Origin: Afipia birgiae 34632
GTDB taxonomy: Bacteria > Pseudomonadota > Alphaproteobacteria > Rhizobiales > Xanthobacteraceae
NCBI RefSeq assembly: GCF_000308295.2
Contig: NZ_HG326652.1
Location: 583,601-647,600 of the forward strand
Direction of reading: 5' to 3'
Length of the DNA stretch: 64,000 bases
The position numbers and the translations under genes are program-made. Under the pieces are notes generated by a model. It ran no database searches. It had not been told where the DNA came from and was given only the letters and a program-made list of their open reading frames with translations. Shown piece after piece: positions 53,471 through 63,036 of this stretch; position 1 is the stretch's first letter; each line of letters starts with the position of its first letter.

Positions 53471-55003
53471 ATGAAGCATATCCTCGAAGCACTCGATGAA
53501 CGTCGCGCAGGCGCCAAAAAGGGCGGCGGCGACAAGCGCATCGAGGCGCAGCACGCCCGCGGCAAGCTGACCGCCCGCGAGCGCATCGAGCTGTTGCTGG
53601 ACAAGGGCTCGTTCGAGGAATTCGACATGTTCGTCGAGCATCGCTCGGTCGAATTCGGCATGGAGAAAAACAAGATCCCCGGCGACGGCGTGGTCACCGG
53701 CTGGGGCACGGTCAACGGCCGCACCACCTTCGTGTTCGCGAAGGACTTCACCGTGTTCGGCGGCTCGCTGTCCGAGACCCATGCGCTGAAGATCACCAAG
53801 CTGCAGGACATGGCGCTGAAGGCGCGCGCGCCGATCATCGGTCTGTACGACGCGGGCGGGGCGCGCATTCAGGAAGGCGTCGCGGCGCTGGCGGGTTACT
53901 CCTATGTGTTCCGCCGCAACGTGATCGCCTCGGGCGTCATCCCGCAGATCAGCGTCATCATGGGCCCGTGCGCGGGCGGCGACGTCTATTCGCCGGCGAT
54001 GACCGACTTCATCTTCATGGTGAAGAACACCAGCTACATGTTCGTCACCGGCCCCGACGTGGTGAAGACCGTGACCAACGAAGTGGTGACGGCGGAAGAA
54101 CTCGGCGGCGCGAGCGTGCACGCGACGAAATCCTCCATCGCCGACGGCGCGTTCAAGGACGACGTCGAGACGCTGCTGCAGATGCGCCGGCTGCTCGACT
54201 TCCTGCCGAGCAACAACACCGACGGCGTTCCGGAGTGGCCGAGCTTCGACGACATCGAGCGCACGGAAGAGTCGCTCGATACGCTGATCCCGGCCAATCC
54301 GAACCAGCCCTACGACATCAAGGAACTGATCCTGAAAGTCGTGGACGAGGGGGACTTCTTCGAACTCGCGGATACCTTCGCCAAGAACATCGTCACCGGC
54401 TTCGGCCGCATCGCGGGCAAGACGGTGGGCTTCGTCGCCAACCAGCCGATGGTGCTGGCGGGCGTGCTCGACTCTGACGCCTCACGCAAGGCCGCGCGCT
54501 TCGTCCGCTTCTGCGATGCGTTCAACATTCCGATCGTCACCTTCGTGGACGTGCCGGGCTTCCTGCCGGGCACCGCGCAGGAATACGGCGGATTGATCAA
54601 GCACGGCGCGAAATTACTATTCGCCTACAGCCAGTGCACGGTGCCGCTGGTCACGGTGATTACGCGCAAGGCTTACGGCGGCGCGTTCGACGTGATGGCC
54701 TCGAAGGAAATCGGCGCGGACATGAACTACGCCTGGCCGACGGCGCAGATCGCGGTGATGGGCGCGAAGGGCGCGGTGGAGATCATCTTCCGGCAGGATA
54801 TCGGCGACGCGGAAAAGATCGCCGCGCGCACCAAGGAATACGAGGACCGCTTCCTGTCACCGTTCGTAGCCGCCGAGCGCGGCTATATCGACGACGTGAT
54901 TATGCCGCACTCGACCCGCAGGCGCATCGCCCGCGCGCTGGCGATGCTGAAGGACAAGCACGTCGACGTGCCGATGAAGAAGCACGACAACATTCCGTTG
55001 TGA
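53471..55003 (+). CDS. pccB: Propionyl-CoA carboxylase beta subunit (carboxyltransferase)
   Basis: The protein has 510 residues, typical for PccB/acyl-CoA carboxylase beta chains. It transfers carboxyl from biotin to propionyl-CoA, giving methylmalonyl-CoA. Conserved parts include [34 protein letters not shown], the oxyanion loop [17 protein letters not shown] [19 protein letters not shown], and [16 protein letters not shown]. The C-terminal [20 protein letters not shown] is diagnostic. The alpha subunit (pccA) is not in the window downstream. Confidence 0.93.
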
Positions 55004-55072
55004 GGGGACGGCCTTTAAACCACTCAAAATTGGGCGAATGATATTTGAAAAAATGGCTTTGAAAATTAGGCA

Positions 55073-55423
55073 ATGCAAGCATCAAACTTGGTAGCTGTCG
55101 TTTCTAGATATGTTGCCGGTGCATTGATCCTCGTAACGATCGGTTTTGAGTTCGCATCATTGCCATGGACATTCTTTGTCCTTGCCATTGGAGGGGCGGC
55201 GATCGTTGCAATTTCGCCCTTTATTGTAATTGGAATTCTAGTGTTTGTTTGGCTTGGGCTCGAAAGGCATCGTCAATTTTATCCATATGCTGCATTTCTT
55301 CTCGGATTGGGATGGGTGACATTTCTTATTATTGCAAAGAATTCGTCTGTATTTGTGTTTATTAGTTATTATGCGTTCTGGCACATGATGTTGGTTCATT
55401 GGCTGATGAGGTTGTTTCATTGA
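55073..55423 (+). CDS. Small membrane protein, AT-rich gene of unknown function
   Basis: The protein has 116 residues with three or four hydrophobic segments (VAGALILVTIGFEFASLPW, FFVLAIGGAAIVAISPF, YAAFLLGLGWVTFLIIAK). The gene is clearly poorer in G+C than its neighbours, with A/T-ending codons, and has no clear Shine-Dalgarno sequence. It lies between pccB and the EthD-like gene, probably acquired or a degenerate remnant. I do not recognise the family. Confidence 0.55.
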   Translation: MQASNLVAVVSRYVAGALILVTIGFEFASLPWTFFVLAIGGAAIVAISPFIVIGILVFVWLGLERHRQFYPYAAFLLGLGWVTFLIIAKNSSVFVFISYYAFWHMMLVHWLMRLFH

Positions 55424-55483
55424 GGTTGTACGATTTTCTCGCACACGTGTCGTGAACGTCGACTAAGCAGAGAACTGATCGCA

Positions 55484-55798
55484 ATGCCCACCCACATCCT
55501 CGTTGTCCGCGCCACTGTCCCCGATGAATCCAGACGCGCTGCGTTTGACGCGTGGTATTCGCGCGAGCATCTGCCGGATGCTGTGAAGTCTTTCGGTTCC
55601 AAGCGCGCGTGGCGCTACTGGCTCGCCAACGATCCCGCCGTGCATCTGGCGATGTATGAATTCCCGGACCGGGCGTCGCTCGATGCCGCCGCAGGCGGCG
55701 AGGAGATGAAGCGCCTGATCCGCGACTTCGACCGCGACTGGCCCGAGGTGAAGCGCACGCGCGACATCATGGTGCAGGCGGAGAGCTGGCCGGGCTGA
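55484..55798 (+). CDS. EthD-like/dimeric alpha-beta barrel hypothetical protein
   Basis: The protein has 104 residues. The pattern ILVVRATVPDESRRAAFDAW, then YSREHLPDAVKSFGSKRAWR, resembles EthD/Dabb-type ferredoxin-like barrels, where a His in a WYxxEHLP motif is common. GAGAA precedes ATG. The function is unknown; members range from degradative helpers to monooxygenase-like proteins. Confidence 0.65.
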   Translation: MPTHILVVRATVPDESRRAAFDAWYSREHLPDAVKSFGSKRAWRYWLANDPAVHLAMYEFPDRASLDAAAGGEEMKRLIRDFDRDWPEVKRTRDIMVQAESWPG

Positions 55799-58639: not shown

Positions 58640-58668
58640 TTGACAGGCGATGGTTGTAGGATTATATT
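58640..58668 (+). promoter_or_regulatory. Near-consensus sigma-70 promoter at the transposon boundary
   Basis: TTGACA at 58640-58645 and TATATT at 58663-58668 are spaced by exactly 17 bases. The -10 box lies within the 8-bp target duplication ATTATATT, and the -35 box is in the host flank. Transcription would enter the left end of the mobile unit and reach the ORF at 58722. Confidence 0.7.
58661..58668. repeat. Target-site duplication, left copy
   Basis: ATTATATT directly abuts the left terminal inverted repeat; the same 8 bases directly abut the right end at 62295-62302. IS1595-family insertions are known to make 8-bp duplications. Confidence 0.9.
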
Positions 58669-58693
58669 CCCAATTATCAAGGTAACACCACAA
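58669..58693 (+). repeat. Left terminal inverted repeat
   Basis: It starts CCCAATTATCAAGGTAACAC and ends CACAA. Compared with the right end it differs at positions 11, 14 and 16 only. Confidence 0.9.
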
Positions 58694-58721
58694 GGGCTGG
58701 ATGTGGTGACGGAGGCCCTAA

Positions 58722-58991
58722 ATGGACGTCCTCAAATCTGGCGGTTTTCTTTCGCCCGGCGATTTTGGATCAGAATTGCCGCCAGCCGGATCGAGCGATG
58801 CTGTCGCACCCGCCGTTATGCCGGACGCCGCCCGCGCTGTGCTGGAAGAGGTGTTCGACGACTGGCGGTCGGAAAACTACGATTTGCTCGTAGAAGGTTT
58901 GCCGGTGGATGTTTTGGATTTGCGATTAAGACTCAACGCGGCTTCTGCGAAAGTTTGTAAATCGGCCCGGCTGGCCCCGAGCGCGTCATAG
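58722..58991 (+). CDS. Passenger ORF, 89-residue hypothetical protein
   Basis: It starts at ATG 58722 with GGAGG seven bases upstream and encodes MDVLKSGGFLSPGDFGSELP, then AVMPDAARAVLEEVFDDWRS. Its last 115 bases are antisense to the end of the next minus-strand gene, so the C-terminal third may be chance. It is the first gene inside the left end and lies downstream of the boundary promoter. No family recognised. Confidence 0.5.
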   Translation: MDVLKSGGFLSPGDFGSELPPAGSSDAVAPAVMPDAARAVLEEVFDDWRSENYDLLVEGLPVDVLDLRLRLNAASAKVCKSARLAPSAS

Positions 58992-59413
58992 AACTGCATA
59001 CTCACCTTGACCATTTCGAGAATGTGTTTTTCAAAGCTTGATTGAGTGAATTCGTGTTTGGTTGCCTTGTATGTGCCGCCGGTTGTCCGACTTAAAAAAT
59101 TCACTGAATCGCTAAAAGACTCGATGTAAGAGTGAGCGAATACGTCACGTTTCTGGATTGCCCGAATTCCGTTAAGCGAGCCTAGGAGTTGATCCCGTTT
59201 CGGGTGATCGCTCCGGCCTATTAGGTCAGCCAAAAGGCGGAACTTCGGACCCGACGTCATCCCGGCGGTTATAAGATGCGCTTGGTGATGAGTGACCTTT
59301 AAGAATTGGCAAATCGCGTAATCAATGGTCAAATCGAGGGATGACCAGTAACCGTGGAAAAGTCCCATCAACTGGGTAAATTCCGGCCGCTGTGCGAGAG
59401 GCGTCTTAGCCAT
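58877..59413 (-). CDS. Passenger ORF, 178-residue hypothetical protein
   Basis: The protein begins MAKTPLAQRPEFTQLMGLFH at ATG 59413, with GGAGA about eight bases upstream; the frame continues upstream but without support. It is largely helical (HGYWSSLDLTIDYAICQFLK, GSLNGIRAIQKRDVFAHSYI) and ends in a Ser/Lys/Thr tail. The RDVFAHS stretch is like those in some HEPN-type or RNA-processing helices, but the match is too weak to claim. Its start codon shares the CATG at 59411-59414 with the divergent 55-residue ORF. Confidence 0.65.
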   Translation of the reverse strand: MAKTPLAQRPEFTQLMGLFHGYWSSLDLTIDYAICQFLKVTHHQAHLITAGMTSGPKFRLLADLIGRSDHPKRDQLLGSLNGIRAIQKRDVFAHSYIESFSDSVNFLSRTTGGTYKATKHEFTQSSFEKHILEMVKVSMQFYDALGASRADLQTFAEAALSLNRKSKTSTGKPSTSKS

Positions 59414-59579
59414 GGCTAAATCTCCAAGTGATGAGAAATTCAGTGATGAGGAAGCGCAACGCCGCTTCATGGGCACGTTGCGCGCGGCGCTAAATACACC
59501 GCCGAAACCGATGGTCTCGCCGAAAAAGAAGAAAGCAAAACGAGCGGCGAAGCCTTTGGCACGTAAGCGTGCCAAGTGA
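59412..59579 (+). CDS. Passenger ORF, 55-residue basic protein
   Basis: The protein begins MAKSPSDEKFSDEEAQRRFM and ends in a strongly basic tail (PKKKKAKRAAKPLARKRAK). Similar short proteins recur as hypotheticals in alphaproteobacterial phage-like and mobile regions. GAGAGGCG lies about eleven bases upstream, within the neighbouring divergent gene. The acidic head and Lys-rich tail suggest nucleic-acid or protein binding; this is inference. Confidence 0.65.
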   Translation: MAKSPSDEKFSDEEAQRRFMGTLRAALNTPPKPMVSPKKKKAKRAAKPLARKRAK

Positions 59580-59605
59580 CTCCGCCGCTGAAAACGTCAG
59601 TCGAA

Positions 59606-59878
59606 TTACGCGGCGTCGGATTTCAAGTAGCTTACGCCGTATTGGAAAGCCGACGGACTACCGCCAAGGTCAATAGCCGTATTCCAGTAGCCACTGCTTG
59701 GCACCGCAATTCGCGCAGGCAGCATTTTGAAATGCCCCCCGTGATAGTTGTGGGATCTGCCGTTCTTGAAGTTCTGAAAGTCTGTATCGCTCATTACTCG
59801 CACGTTGCATTGGTGCGAGCATTGAACGACGACCACATCGCCTGCATTTAAGTATTCACGAGAATGAACGAAGCGCAT
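59606..59878 (-). CDS. DUF1883 protein
   Basis: The protein has 90 residues. It starts MRFVHSREYLNAGDVVVVQC and contains CSHQCNVRVMSDTDFQNFKN, GGHFKMLPARIAVPSSGYWN and TAIDLGG, the pattern of DUF1883, a small family of unknown function often found alone or fused to TIR domains. AGGAG precedes ATG. No TIR domain is present here. It is a passenger of the mobile unit. Confidence 0.88.
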   Translation of the reverse strand: MRFVHSREYLNAGDVVVVQCSHQCNVRVMSDTDFQNFKNGRSHNYHGGHFKMLPARIAVPSSGYWNTAIDLGGSPSAFQYGVSYLKSDAA

Positions 59879-60067
59879 GAATCGGCTCCTGTAATGGGGC
59901 CGATCTTGACTACATGGGCGATTCAGGAGTTAAGTCCTGAGTGTTAACGACCACTGCCCGCGATCAGCCCCTAGCTGAAAATTGCGGGATCGGGGATCAT
60001 CCTTCGCAGGGATGGTCCCTGATTCGTTTGCGAGCGTGTCTGATTCTCGCTCGGGAGTCGATTCGCC
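59879..60067. promoter_or_regulatory. Divergent passenger-gene regulatory region
   Basis: It lies between the DUF1883 gene and the 63-residue ORF. It contains ATCGGCTCC ... GGGGCCGAT at 59881-59904 and a perfect repeat TCAGGA-GTTAAG-TCCTGA at 59923-59940, with TTGACT at 59907 as a possible -35. The second palindrome is a good operator candidate. Confidence 0.5.
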
Positions 60068-60259
60068 ATGGATATGGATTTGATGCGCAGGCAGATAGCG
60101 GAATCGACACTCCGCTCGCGCGCCGAAATCGTCCGATACATCGAAGAGGCTGAGCAGGACGGCAAACGCAAAGACGCTAGGTCGTGGAAGTCTGCGCTCC
60201 GAAAGATCGACAAGCAGATCGCAATGTATGGATTGGATCGCTATGCCCCGAAGTCCTAA
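60068..60259 (+). CDS. Passenger ORF, 63-residue hypothetical protein
   Basis: It starts at ATG 60068 with GGGAG about twelve bases upstream. The protein is charged and helical (RRQIAESTLRSRAEIVRYIE, EEAEQDGKRKDARSWKSALR). Its stop overlaps the start of the next ORF by about 17 bases in another frame, so the two are probably translated together. No family recognised. Confidence 0.6.
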   Translation: MDMDLMRRQIAESTLRSRAEIVRYIEEAEQDGKRKDARSWKSALRKIDKQIAMYGLDRYAPKS

Positions 60260-60449
60260 AGGCGAGAAGCGGCCTGACATCGACTGGCGCAGTGTTGCCT
60301 TCGTGCCCGGCAGGATGTGCGCGAAATGCATCGGGAAGCGCCTGAAGTTGGCGCGCGCCGGTTCGGACCCGCATTTGGATTTTGAATGTCGGCGGTGCGA
60401 CTATATCCGGGACCATGTCGAGCGGTCCGACAGAACACAAGCGGCATAA
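60243..60449 (+). CDS. Passenger ORF, 68-residue possible zinc-ribbon protein
   Basis: It starts MPRSPKGEKRPDIDWRSVAF and carries CAKC and CRRCDYI about 23 residues apart, a pattern that could bind one zinc ion. It overlaps the upstream ORF. It may bind DNA or RNA, which is inference from the cysteine spacing only. Confidence 0.6.
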   Translation: MPRSPKGEKRPDIDWRSVAFVPGRMCAKCIGKRLKLARAGSDPHLDFECRRCDYIRDHVERSDRTQAA

Positions 60450-60464
60450 CATCAAGAAATCAAT

Positions 60465-60716
60465 ATGGCCCTCAAACGAAAGCCTCTGTTGGGTCAGGCC
60501 CATCTTAAGAAAATAGTATGGGATGAATTGCAACGTTTCAAAGCCTGCCAATCCATAACAGCGATTGGGATATACCTTCGCGATCATTCCGTAGCCGGGA
60601 CATGGCGAATAGGCACAGTCCCCAATCGAGACGACTTTAATCAGGAATGCAGCTTTATCGTGCGCGATGTCGAAGAACGTTTAGGCAAGCTATACGATCT
60701 CGGACCTGAAGATTAA
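60465..60716 (+). CDS. Passenger ORF, 83-residue hypothetical protein
   Basis: The protein starts MALKRKPLLGQAHLKKIVWD and contains AIGIYLRDHSVAGTWRIGTV and FIVRDVEERLGKLYDLGPED. It lies 15 bases behind the zinc-ribbon ORF in the same direction, and a hairpin follows at 60738. The ribosome-binding site is weak. No family recognised. Confidence 0.6.
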   Translation: MALKRKPLLGQAHLKKIVWDELQRFKACQSITAIGIYLRDHSVAGTWRIGTVPNRDDFNQECSFIVRDVEERLGKLYDLGPED

Positions 60717-60737
60717 CGAGAGAAATAAGTAAGGAAG

Positions 60738-60762
60738 AAGCCCGGCAAATAGCCGGGCTTCT
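60738..60762 (+). terminator. Terminator-like hairpin in the passenger region
   Basis: GAAGCCCGGC / GCCGGGCTTC with loop AAATA forms a 10-bp stem, followed by TTG rather than a full T-run. It closes the 60068-60716 group. Confidence 0.7.
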
Positions 60763-60778
60763 TGTTGAGGAGATCATC

Positions 60779-61000
60779 ATGAGTTTGCAGGCGATCATAA
60801 ATCGATCAACAGCAATTGTCATTGGCCCAAAGGGCGAGCGACTATTTCTTCTCGCTGATGAGACGTCGGCGAAAGCGCTCCACCAAATTGTCAAGCAGAT
60901 CAATGCCGATCTTCATGCCGACAACTTCGGTCTCAATCGAAATGCTCTCGCTAACCGTGCCCTTGGCATCTCTAATGAGGACTTGCTTGATCTCATCTAA
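60779..61000 (+). CDS. Passenger ORF, 73-residue hypothetical protein
   Basis: It starts at ATG 60779 with GAGGAG eight bases upstream. The protein contains RSTAIVIGPKGERLFLLADE and AKALHQIVKQINADLHADNF, plausible for a small folded alpha/beta protein. Its 3-prime two-thirds is antisense to the 102-residue ORF on the other strand. Both have good ribosome-binding sites. Confidence 0.5.
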   Translation: MSLQAIINRSTAIVIGPKGERLFLLADETSAKALHQIVKQINADLHADNFGLNRNALANRALGISNEDLLDLI

Positions 61001-61150
61001 CCAAGGGCCATTAACATTACCGTTGGCCTCGGCTAATGCATTGAGCAGATGGTCGATACCACCGCTCAAAGCCATGATTACGAAACCTGCTTCCTGTAGG
61101 CTCTTCGGGGCAGGCATGCTGAAAGCAATTTTCTTATTGTCGTCAACCAT
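60842..61150 (-). CDS. Passenger ORF, 102-residue hypothetical protein
   Basis: It starts at ATG 61150 with GGAGAAG upstream. It encodes MVDDNKKIAFSMPAPKSLQE and a helical body (GGIDHLLNALAEANGNVNGP, LDNLVERFRRRLISEKK). It overlaps the plus-strand 73-residue ORF by 159 bases at the 3-prime ends. It follows the transposase in the same direction and might be cotranscribed with it. No family recognised. Confidence 0.55.
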   Translation of the reverse strand: MVDDNKKIAFSMPAPKSLQEAGFVIMALSGGIDHLLNALAEANGNVNGPWLDEIKQVLIRDAKGTVSESISIETEVVGMKIGIDLLDNLVERFRRRLISEKK

Positions 61151-61179
61151 CTACTTCTCCAGCTTCACTTTCCAAGTAT

Positions 61180-61296
61180 CTAACTTTTGCGCCAATACTT
61201 CACACGCTTAGGTTTCGTCGGCTTCCAATTCTTCTTTCGCCAGCGCAGGAATCGTCCCGCTGCTTTGCTGTAGTCCGGCTTAACGAGGTTGCCCAT
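61180..61296 (-). CDS. Small basic ORF (38 residues) overlapping the transposase end
   Basis: The frame starts MGNLVKPDYSKAAGRFLRWR and continues KKNWKPTKPKRVKYWRKS. It overlaps the transposase stop by 17 bases in another frame. The high content of Lys, Arg and Trp suggests nucleic-acid binding. The AAGG upstream is rather distant, so the call is tentative. Confidence 0.4.
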   Translation of the reverse strand: MGNLVKPDYSKAAGRFLRWRKKNWKPTKPKRVKYWRKS

Positions 61297-62227
61297 ACAG
61301 AAGGCGCTTACCTTCTGCTCCTTTGATAGCGGCTACGGTGCGGGTAACGTCGGAATGGCCAAGAGCGATACGATGATTGTAGCGGAAATCAAATTCGGCC
61401 AAGTAGCGATGCAGATGCTTTTCGGCACAGTGCTGATAGACGCCCTTCATGCCGCGCTTGAAGATTGAGAAGTAGCCTTCGACCGAATTGGTGTTTACGT
61501 CGCCGCGTGCGTATTCCTTTGCGCTGTGGTTGACCGTCTCATGCGAAGCGAACTCGGAACCGACGCGAGTGTAGAGACGGCTTTCATCGGTATGCAGCCG
61601 GGTTTCGCGGTCGATGTTATCTCGGACGATCTTGGCAACGCTGGCACCATCCGCAACGGCAACATGGAACGAGCGAACCGAACCGCCGCGCTCCACCAGC
61701 GAAACGATGGCCCGCTTATTTGACGGGCCGGTACGGCCCGATTTGGTAAAGGGGCGACCGCTCGTTGTCGTCTTGCGGGCCTTCGTCTTGGCCACTGGCC
61801 CATAGTAGGTTTCGTCCGCCTCAACGATTGAGCCGGGTCCGCCCATAGGCGAGAAGCCACCGTCCCGCATCGCCTCGCGGATGCGGTGGCACAGGAACCA
61901 AGCCGACTGATACGAAATGCCGAGGTGGCGCTTAAGCTGGAGCGCCGACATACCCTTCTTGCTGGAGCAAAGCAGGTAGAACGCCAGCATCCACTTATGC
62001 AGCGCGATCTTGCTGCGCTCCATGACGGTGCCGGTGGTGCAGGTGAAGTCCTTTCGGCATTCCGGCTCGGCGCAACGGTAGAGGCCCGCACGGCCACTGA
62101 CGGGATAGGCGTGATCGACGGTGCCACAATGCGAGCAGACCGGGCCGCTGGGCCAACGGATGCTTTCAATCATGGCGCGGGCATCGTCATCATTCGTGAA
62201 GTGCGGGGCCGATAGCACGCTTTTCAT
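61280..62227 (-). CDS. IS1595-family transposase (ISXO2-like DDE domain)
   Basis: The protein has 315 residues from ATG 62227 (GGAGA upstream). An N-terminal zinc ribbon (CSHCG ... CAEPECRKDF) binds the terminal repeats; it is followed by the helix-turn-helix-like part LQLKRHLGISYQSAWFLCHR. The ISXO2-like catalytic domain holds aspartates in IVEADETYYG and LHTDESRLY, and the third part NTNSVEGYFSIFKRGMKGVY. It is full length with no visible disruption. The start is 43 bases inside the right terminal repeat. Confidence 0.95.
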   Translation of the reverse strand: MKSVLSAPHFTNDDDARAMIESIRWPSGPVCSHCGTVDHAYPVSGRAGLYRCAEPECRKDFTCTTGTVMERSKIALHKWMLAFYLLCSSKKGMSALQLKRHLGISYQSAWFLCHRIREAMRDGGFSPMGGPGSIVEADETYYGPVAKTKARKTTTSGRPFTKSGRTGPSNKRAIVSLVERGGSVRSFHVAVADGASVAKIVRDNIDRETRLHTDESRLYTRVGSEFASHETVNHSAKEYARGDVNTNSVEGYFSIFKRGMKGVYQHCAEKHLHRYLAEFDFRYNHRIALGHSDVTRTVAAIKGAEGKRLLYGQPR

Positions 62228-62269
62228 CGCAGAATCTCCAAAAGATGCTGCGACTACTACATTAGGTAG

Positions 62270-62294
62270 TTGTGGTGTCAACTAGATAATTGGG
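62270..62294 (-). repeat. Right terminal inverted repeat
   Basis: On the minus strand it reads CCCAATTATCTAGTTGACAC then CACAA, matching the left end at 22 of 25 positions. Confidence 0.9.
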
Positions 62295-62302
62295 ATTATA
62301 TT
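62295..62302. repeat. Target-site duplication, right copy
   Basis: ATTATATT follows the right terminal repeat directly, in direct orientation with 58661-58668. Confidence 0.9.
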
Positions 62303-63036
62303 CCTTCTCGTCCCGCCCTGTCATGAGGGGCGTTTCGCGATCGTCACGATACGCGGGGCGGGATGCGGTGGCCGCTTGCGGCGCTCGGTTCGTGGCTGTG
62401 AAAAGCACCGCGAACGACGACGGCGCCGAGCGCGTCTTCCGCGAAAGTGGGGACCGGTTTCGCGGCCGGAAGACGCGCCAATTGTATTGGGGCGTTTTCT
62501 GATCGGCGAACCGGAAGTCCACTTCGCCGGAAAACGCCCAGGCGGACGGCTGAAGTCGCGTGGTCCCGGCGTCGCGGTGCTGACGTCGAAAGGAGCGGGA
62601 GGGTCTGTCGCCCTTGTGGCGGTGGAAGTCACTCACGATCCAGAACGGTGGCGAAAGAGCCGTCCACCGGGGAGAGCGCGGAATAAGCCGTTCCAACCAT
62701 TGCGTGCGGGACGCCGGATGCCTCCGGCGCAACCGTGGTGACTAACTCGTGTGCTTTTTACTTTGCACACGAGGCTGCGGATGCGCTTGCGCATCCGGCG
62801 TTCCGCGCGCCCTCATTTCGAGGGCGAAGGAAACGAGGAATTCGGGCGCCCCCGCGCCTTTCAAACAACAGGGGTGATGGCGTATGGCTTCATGAAAACG
62901 GGGAGATGAAGCACAACGCGCATCACACATTCAATGTCGTCCACACCTGCGCGGGGACGACGCGGGTGATTGTTGTGTGCACCGGCACCCAAAGAAAACC
63001 CCGCCGAAGCGGGTTTTGAATTGTGTGGCTGCGCGC
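62303..63036. repeat. Non-coding, repeat-like region
   Basis: These 734 bases hold no supported gene. Hairpins occur at 62712-62728 (GCCGGATGCCTCCGGC), 62748-62771 (CGTGTGC / GCACACG) and 62778-62797 (CGGATGCGC TT GCGCATCCG). Together with CACCGGGGAGAGCGCGGAAT near 62668 they resemble a dispersed intergenic sequence that I know from Bradyrhizobium genomes. The mobile unit sits just before it. Confidence 0.45.

Follow-up and report, generated by a model that had tools for sequence, protein, structure and literature searches.

A 3.6-kb IS1595-family transposon of Afipia birgiae with a conserved tiny gene and a predicted HEPN-type effector in an apparently exchangeable cargo slot

What does an IS1595-family transposon several kilobases long carry, does the carried DNA travel with the transposase, and which of its genes belong to the element itself rather than to its cargo? 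These questions are raised by a locus of Afipia birgiae 34632 (Alphaproteobacteria; Rhizobiales; Xanthobacteraceae) that lies within the stretch of 64,000 nucleotides analysed here (the window: contig NZ_HG326652.1, positions 583,601 to 647,600; all feature coordinates are positions within it). Our answer, to which we give a probability of roughly 0.68, is that the element at 58669-62294 (3626 bp) is a transposon whose core comprises the transposase and a tiny gene, joined to a slot for a swappable effector, which in this copy would be filled by a HEPN-type RNase.

The element is complete. Its terminal inverted repeats (TIRs), at the cargo end (58669..58693, plus strand) and the transposase end (62270..62294, minus strand), agree at 22 of 25 positions, with mismatches at three, and are bordered by exact copies of an 8-bp target-site duplication (TSD), ATTATATT, on the left (58661..58668) and on the right (62295..62302). 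When the search for TIRs paired with a TSD was run as a control from 300 random anchors in the window, pairs were returned at 11 of them under the loosest setting and a pair with an exact TSD at one, which is possibly the element itself as it had not been masked. The transposase, a protein of 315 amino acids (aa) encoded at 61280..62227 on the minus strand, matches the Pfam families DDE_Tnp_IS1595 (1.4e-33) and Zn_ribbon_IS1595 (6.4e-13). The four cysteines of the zinc ribbon are present in all 86 of 86 aligned transposases, as are D138, D214 and E250, which by their position would constitute the catalytic triad. The G+C content runs at 47–57% over the cargo part and at 56–62% over the transposase part, and the surrounding DNA has about 63%. 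An earlier note, made from the letters of the window alone, had described an IS1595-family transposon with a right-end transposase, matching terminal repeats with exact flanking copies and a cargo of lower G+C, and on all these points it is borne out. The family is marked by an IS1595 transposase together with an 8-bp duplication, and all its groups except IS1016 have an N-terminal zinc ribbon (PMC8101967). The DDE domain, the zinc ribbon, the TIRs and the 8-bp duplication are all found here. Within the family the element may belong to the ISNwi1 or the ISNha5 group.

The entire element was inserted in one step. When its two flanks are joined they match a site in another genome of the genus (G027:C84:2692-2890) at 82% across the junction, and this site has a single ATTATATT. 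Since the left flank also aligns there, the site is orthologous and empty, rather than just a further copy of the repeat that makes up the right flank, and the single target copy implies that the whole 3626-bp unit arrived at once. A further place, G005:C2:671991-672211, matches the same span at 73%. On another contig of the same genome a second copy retains the cargo-side TIR and the following 470 bp at 91% identity and ends at about 494 bp. Transposase and cargo thus form a single mobile unit, as the earlier note had supposed from the intact repeats, and it entered its AT-rich 8-bp target in its entirety. That note had also proposed looking for an empty site, which G027 supplied with its one target copy, and for the same cargo at other loci; the truncated second copy was found, and a full copy of the element was absent from the other genomes of the genus (29 searched, own included). 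Some match was obtained in 12 of these 29 genomes, again counting the own, and the strong matches elsewhere fell at the transposase end. Among 198 genomes of the family (two candidate places scored in each), the cargo block was encountered as DNA outside the own genome only in pieces of at most 164 bases. A plasmid search gave 41 records; in each of the 20 listed it is the transposase end that matches, and the HEPN-like protein gave no plasmid match. Cargo without the repeats, which the note had named as evidence against a single unit, did not turn up in the genomes searched, a homologue of one small gene excepted. The second copy (L004:4170-4663 on G000:C4) is a truncated cargo end broken within the HEPN-like gene. 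The right flank (62303-62379 and neighbouring positions) consists of a single copy of an intergenic repeat that occurs many times across the genus, and the insertion point lies at the edge of that copy, at GGATTATATTCC.

Related elements were collected through a transposase scan (the best 80 of at least 496 confirmed loci). With the window and genus loci included, 100 transposase-hit sequences yielded 70 elements that have both TIRs and a duplication, of which 65 were kept after removal of L001, L006, L008 and L017 (duplicates of the window, L028, L027 and L036, respectively) and of L014 (33% identity); the end pairs of L069, L081 and L083, from a looser search, are unconfirmed and uncounted. 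A second, separately gathered set comprised 23 elements once four duplicates had been removed; L144_2 and L161, with poor end repeats, were left out of the tree, and these two and L152 were left out of the second-set start-codon count. The 65 elements, the window's included, span 1994–3794 bp (median 2519), 64 of them have an exact 8-bp duplication, the duplications being 86% A+T, and in all 65 at least 993 bp lie beyond the transposase hit. Given that copies of other IS1595-family groups reported from Ralstonia measure 700–1287 bp (PMC7371123), cargo is normal in this clade, with the window's element at the long end. The earlier note had presented the unit as far larger than a plain IS1595 copy; within the clade, at 2.0–3.8 kb, cargo is the rule, and this copy is not unusual in carrying it.

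Besides the transposase, one small gene recurs in nearly all of these elements. In the window it lies at 59412..59579 on the plus strand and encodes a tiny protein of 55 aa with a PPKP motif and a basic tail. All-against-all comparison of the cargo open reading frames (ORFs) grouped a small charged protein into three clusters, found in 25, 17 and 15 elements. Profiles made from these clusters detect the tiny protein in 62 of the 65 elements, a figure that is partly circular, and in 21 of the 23 second-set elements, which is the better test as they were gathered by another search; one of the two misses there has a distant (31%) transposase. Its length is mostly 45–70 aa. As a control, 115 flanking pieces of 2.5 kb were scanned, and seven of the eight positives lay inside neighbouring elements. 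A search begun from the tiny protein found 49 places, and 30 of the 40 loci given had an IS1595 transposase hit inside the locus of about 2–3 kb; one of the ten loci without such a hit is the window's own, with its transposase a short way outside. The family has 1149 database members (E <= 0.001), homologues that, among the 120 listed, display no Pfam domain and no name besides 'hypothetical protein', and five tiny proteins scanned against Pfam gave nothing above the cut-off. In L099 near 3020, at a Mesorhizobium locus, a subfamily-B tiny gene lies outside the two elements detected there, perhaps in a third, decayed element.

The tiny proteins fall into subfamilies A, B and C, which were mapped on a tree of 86 transposase rows, 79 of them labelled (the other seven being four without a tiny gene and three that match A and C alike). 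Only three changes of subfamily are needed on the labelled rows, and two in the 65-element set, against 29 when shuffled. Subfamily B makes up one side of a branch, and C alone is scattered (seven changes), as expected of an ancestral form. Orientation relative to the transposase follows the same division: opposite in 25/25 of A, same in 17/17 of B and opposite in 19/20 of C. In subfamily B the tiny gene starts no more than 63 nucleotides past the transposase stop in 8/17 cases and overlaps a cargo ORF at the latter's 3' end in 6/17; in L103, one of the eight, a cargo ORF also ends 20 nucleotides upstream. In the listed pairs of tiny genes, 36 in number, the ratio of non-synonymous to synonymous substitution rates (Ka/Ks) ranged from 0.17 to 0.99; being close to saturation, it counted for little here. 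Because the subfamilies track the transposase tree, the transposase and the tiny gene look like the core of the element, and this two-gene core is common to most of the relatives. The distribution of the tiny gene is that of a core gene, and we accordingly read its product as a putative transposition partner or regulator.

The larger cargo genes, one or a few per element, vary between elements. The cargo, which the earlier note had thought might be a defence, regulatory or stabilising set, is not a uniform block: one small gene looks core and another looks like an exchangeable effector. HEPN RNases bear the signature R-polar-x3-H with an acidic residue upstream (PMC3710099). Of 102 large cargo ORFs, a set drawn up mechanically with spurious frames included, 37 contain the pattern R[ND]xxxH, against a shuffled mean of 3.9 and maximum of 10; it is found in 34 of the 65 elements, and in 16 of 205 ORFs of the flanks (Fisher 3e-9 for cargo versus flank ORFs). 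On the tree (65 rows) HEPN-motif cargo requires 18 changes against a shuffled 21.9, with 10 of 200 shuffles as low, which is near enough to the shuffled value to indicate that this cargo is almost independent of the transposase lineage. A Pfam scan of 99 cargo ORFs, three spurious window frames having been dropped from the 102, identified (among the 25 families listed of 56) DUF3800 in seven, NYN in three, and GmrSD_N, HNH and MtlR in two each, along with single matches to PIN, RelA/SpoT, MT-A70, SocA, AlbA_2 and GNAT. MtlR has been placed within the HEPN superfamily (PMC3710099). PADLOC models recognised HEC-09 in three, NsnA in two, and PDC-S33 and pAgo in one each, and NCBIfam added little for the 99 ORFs. 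The exchange of these genes suggests that they are dispensable for transposition. Individual cargo proteins include one of 522 aa (L082:8959-10527) that matches the pAgo model at 5.6e-42 over residues 53-440, and one (L043:12083-13327) combining a RelA/SpoT domain with a PDC-S33 match of 3e-98, perhaps an alarmone-type toxin. A further small family (ITPxMIxAG; L036:9849-10070 and similar) forms a cluster of eight elements with a look-alike cluster of two.

In this copy the candidate effector is the HEPN-like protein of 178 aa encoded at 58877..59413 on the minus strand, which contains RDVFAH, a sequence conforming to the HEPN pattern Rx4-6H with a polar residue after the R. Related proteins in the database number 33, its own entry included; in an alignment of 27 rows comprising the window protein and its homologues (seven of the 33, the own copy and six partial ones, being left out), R89 and H94 are invariant and D90 is conserved in at least 90%. 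An hhalign comparison with 28 HEPN-motif cargo proteins, namely the 37 motif ORFs less eight non-HEPN ones and the window's own, gave a probability of 92 and an E of 6e-7 over 102 columns, the two sharing the pattern G-x5-W-x3-[DE] besides the motif; as the reference set was itself selected by motif, this result is support, not proof. Within the 28 references, MtlR matches only two (2e-5) and DUF4145 only two (0.022), and Abi_2 and the named HEPN families match weakly. No MNT nucleotidyltransferase domain was present in the 10 element ORFs scanned. Over the 93 codons shared with the truncated second copy there are 13 synonymous and three non-synonymous differences (Ka/Ks 0.05). Across the 198 genomes of the family a HEPN-like match occurs in five, the own included, the best (57%, in G452) having a partial IS1595 transposase and a weak match to the tiny protein next to it. 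The window's protein is predicted to be a HEPN RNase, and as an effector it probably serves defence or addiction.

The tiny gene and the HEPN-like gene are placed head to head, and their start codons overlap in the CATG at 59411..59414, read on the plus and the minus strand, respectively. Since one CATG serves opposite strands, the leader of each gene lies inside the coding sequence of the other. With the choice of start fixed beforehand, the same arrangement was recovered in 24 of 45 A/C elements, the window included, 40 of these 45 having a divergent large ORF. The binomial probability is 4e-13 for an expected 0.12 and 4e-8 for 0.2, these expectations being estimates and the kinship of the elements being ignored. 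A second method, which accepts any in-frame ATG, found it in 26 of the 33 A/C elements in which it recognises a divergent large ORF, in 0/7 B elements, and in 6/13 of the second set. Unrelated cargo families begin at the CATG, for example DUF3800 in L039. Shine-Dalgarno-like 4-mers precede 13/30 tiny and 12/30 effector starts of this kind, frequencies that do not explain the arrangement, and such signals were discarded as its cause. The start of the tiny gene is likely to delimit the cargo slot and to couple expression. The stretch 59411-59433, the leader of the HEPN-like gene, is 78% alike to 62225-62247, the leader of the transposase gene, over 23 nucleotides (repeat D3); both genes lie on the minus strand, and the likeness possibly reflects no more than a common ribosome-binding site.

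Several observations weigh against a conserved core with a slot for nuclease-like effectors. The 178-aa protein has no significant match in Pfam, PADLOC (2023; 0 families) or PDB, whose sequence searches returned nothing credible. A detectable tiny gene is missing from 3/65 and 2/23 elements, and one of the 115 control pieces has one outside any detected element. The HEPN motif also appears in 15/117 flank pieces, neighbouring elements being present in some of these, and 8/37 motif ORFs were judged non-HEPN (e.g. NYN, RelA/SpoT), leaving 29/65 elements. Furthermore, 23/30 cargo proteins scanned singly have no PADLOC match, and 35/100 transposase-hit sequences gave no complete element and were left out of the counts. 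A quite different explanation, that only the transposase part of about 1 kb is mobile and the remainder is local DNA caught by chance between similar repeats, has no observation in its favour and deserves practically no credence. The empty site lacks the entire 3.6 kb, which rules out mobility of that part alone, and the second copy joins a TIR to cargo; a transposase-only unit of this size, which the earlier note had said would tell against its view, was seen in 0/65 complete elements.

More serious is the view that the cargo is neutral baggage or a set of general accessory genes, and that only the transposase and the tiny gene matter to the element. It would account for the 12 of 20 cargo ORFs scanned singly that have no match above the Pfam cut-off, for the almost random changes of HEPN cargo on the tree, and for the further small genes of the window, which have no evident role. 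However, the HEPN-like gene, judged by the excess of synonymous differences between the two copies, is under strong purifying selection, and the cargo is enriched in one catalytic motif and in nuclease-like families; we consider this view unlikely. Alternatively, the tiny protein and the HEPN-like protein might form a toxin–antitoxin (TA) pair, in which the basic tiny protein would counteract the RNase and addiction would stabilise the transposon. The genes are adjacent and have start codon bases in common, HEPN proteins are toxins in known TA pairs (PMC3710099), and TA pairs, HEPN ones included, occur as cargo of Tn3-family transposons (PMC7157771). However, the tiny protein is kept alongside unrelated cargo (DUF3800, GmrSD, RelA/SpoT) and follows the transposase tree, as HEPN cargo hardly does, and nearly half of the subfamily-B tiny genes instead start shortly after the transposase gene. 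Moreover, TA genes usually form a single operon. The tree behaviour and the subfamily-B position make a cargo-specific antitoxin the less likely role for the tiny protein, and we regard the TA pair as quite improbable.

If the element is indeed a transposase and tiny-gene core with a swappable effector, the DDE transposase, helped or controlled by the tiny protein, would move the whole unit, and the exchangeable gene would pay its way as a single-gene effector directed at nucleic acids. In this copy the HEPN-type RNase could cut RNA in infected or stressed cells, giving phage defence via growth arrest, or it may instead harm cells that lose the element; the shared CATG would probably couple expression of the tiny gene and the effector and mark the boundary of the slot. 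A broader proposal, held tentatively and at rather less than even odds, is that of widespread minimal mobile effector cassettes, with the IS1595 transposase and its tiny partner as vehicle and unrelated nuclease-like defence or toxin genes swapped into a slot edged by the tiny start, their expression locked in antisense with the tiny gene.

The 'about ten passenger genes' counted earlier for this copy are too many, the supported ones being the tiny gene, the HEPN-like gene, a DUF1883 gene and a gene at 60842..61150. The DUF1883 gene, named as such in the earlier note, is upheld by PF08980 at 1.8e-28 (59606..59878, minus strand, 90 aa). The 102-aa gene at 60842..61150 (minus strand) is antisense to an ORF at 60779-61000 and has a 57% homologue in G436, whose 3.3-kb locus contains no IS1595 transposase and no tiny-protein match. 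An 89-aa ORF (58722..58991, plus strand) that overlaps the HEPN-like gene at the latter's 3' end is a doubtful gene; it is open in the second copy, with a Ka/Ks of 0.42, or 0.59 outside the overlap, and has no Pfam match. Three plus-strand ORFs are unproven, namely those of 63 aa (60068..60259), 73 aa (60228..60449) and 83 aa (60465..60716), the last with matches in its own genome only among 149 searched. A perfect 12-bp hairpin resembling a terminator lies at 60735..60763 (inverted repeat I7). Away from the element, G+C falls to 43% at 55000-55500 of the window.

Passenger genes within IS1595 'transporter IS' elements (IS, insertion sequence) are known, for example in ISNha5 (Siguier, Gagnevin and Chandler 2009, as cited; PMC11891212). 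ISNha5 resembles the present element in belonging to IS1595 and carrying a passenger gene inside an IS, but it is cited for a transcription regulator, and the available descriptions of it contain no tiny gene, HEPN-type cargo or interlocked starts. The Tn3-family TA transposons (PMC7157771) likewise have exchangeable toxin-like cargo, HEPN among its types, at a fixed place by the transposition genes; however, their transposase is of another family and their cargo consists of TA pairs, in 39/190 elements, whereas the elements described here mostly carry single effectors with a near-universal tiny gene. With the HEPN superfamily effectors (PMC3710099) the window protein shares the R-polar-x3-H motif and the upstream acidic residue, but it matches no named HEPN family and the element is without an MNT partner. 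In the literature searched, mostly as titles and abstract openings, we found no publication on the tiny gene, on HEPN cargo in IS1595 elements or on the interlocked starts. With a tiny conserved protein beside the transposase and one exchangeable gene, here probably encoding an RNase, this little-described group of elements may spread single-gene defences between bacteria. If it is true that the core has a second gene and that the slot collects RNases and nucleases, the elements would represent a transposition system so far unexamined and, at the same time, a catalogue in which to find new defence or toxin genes, and the interlocked starts make the question of cargo exchange and expression directly testable.

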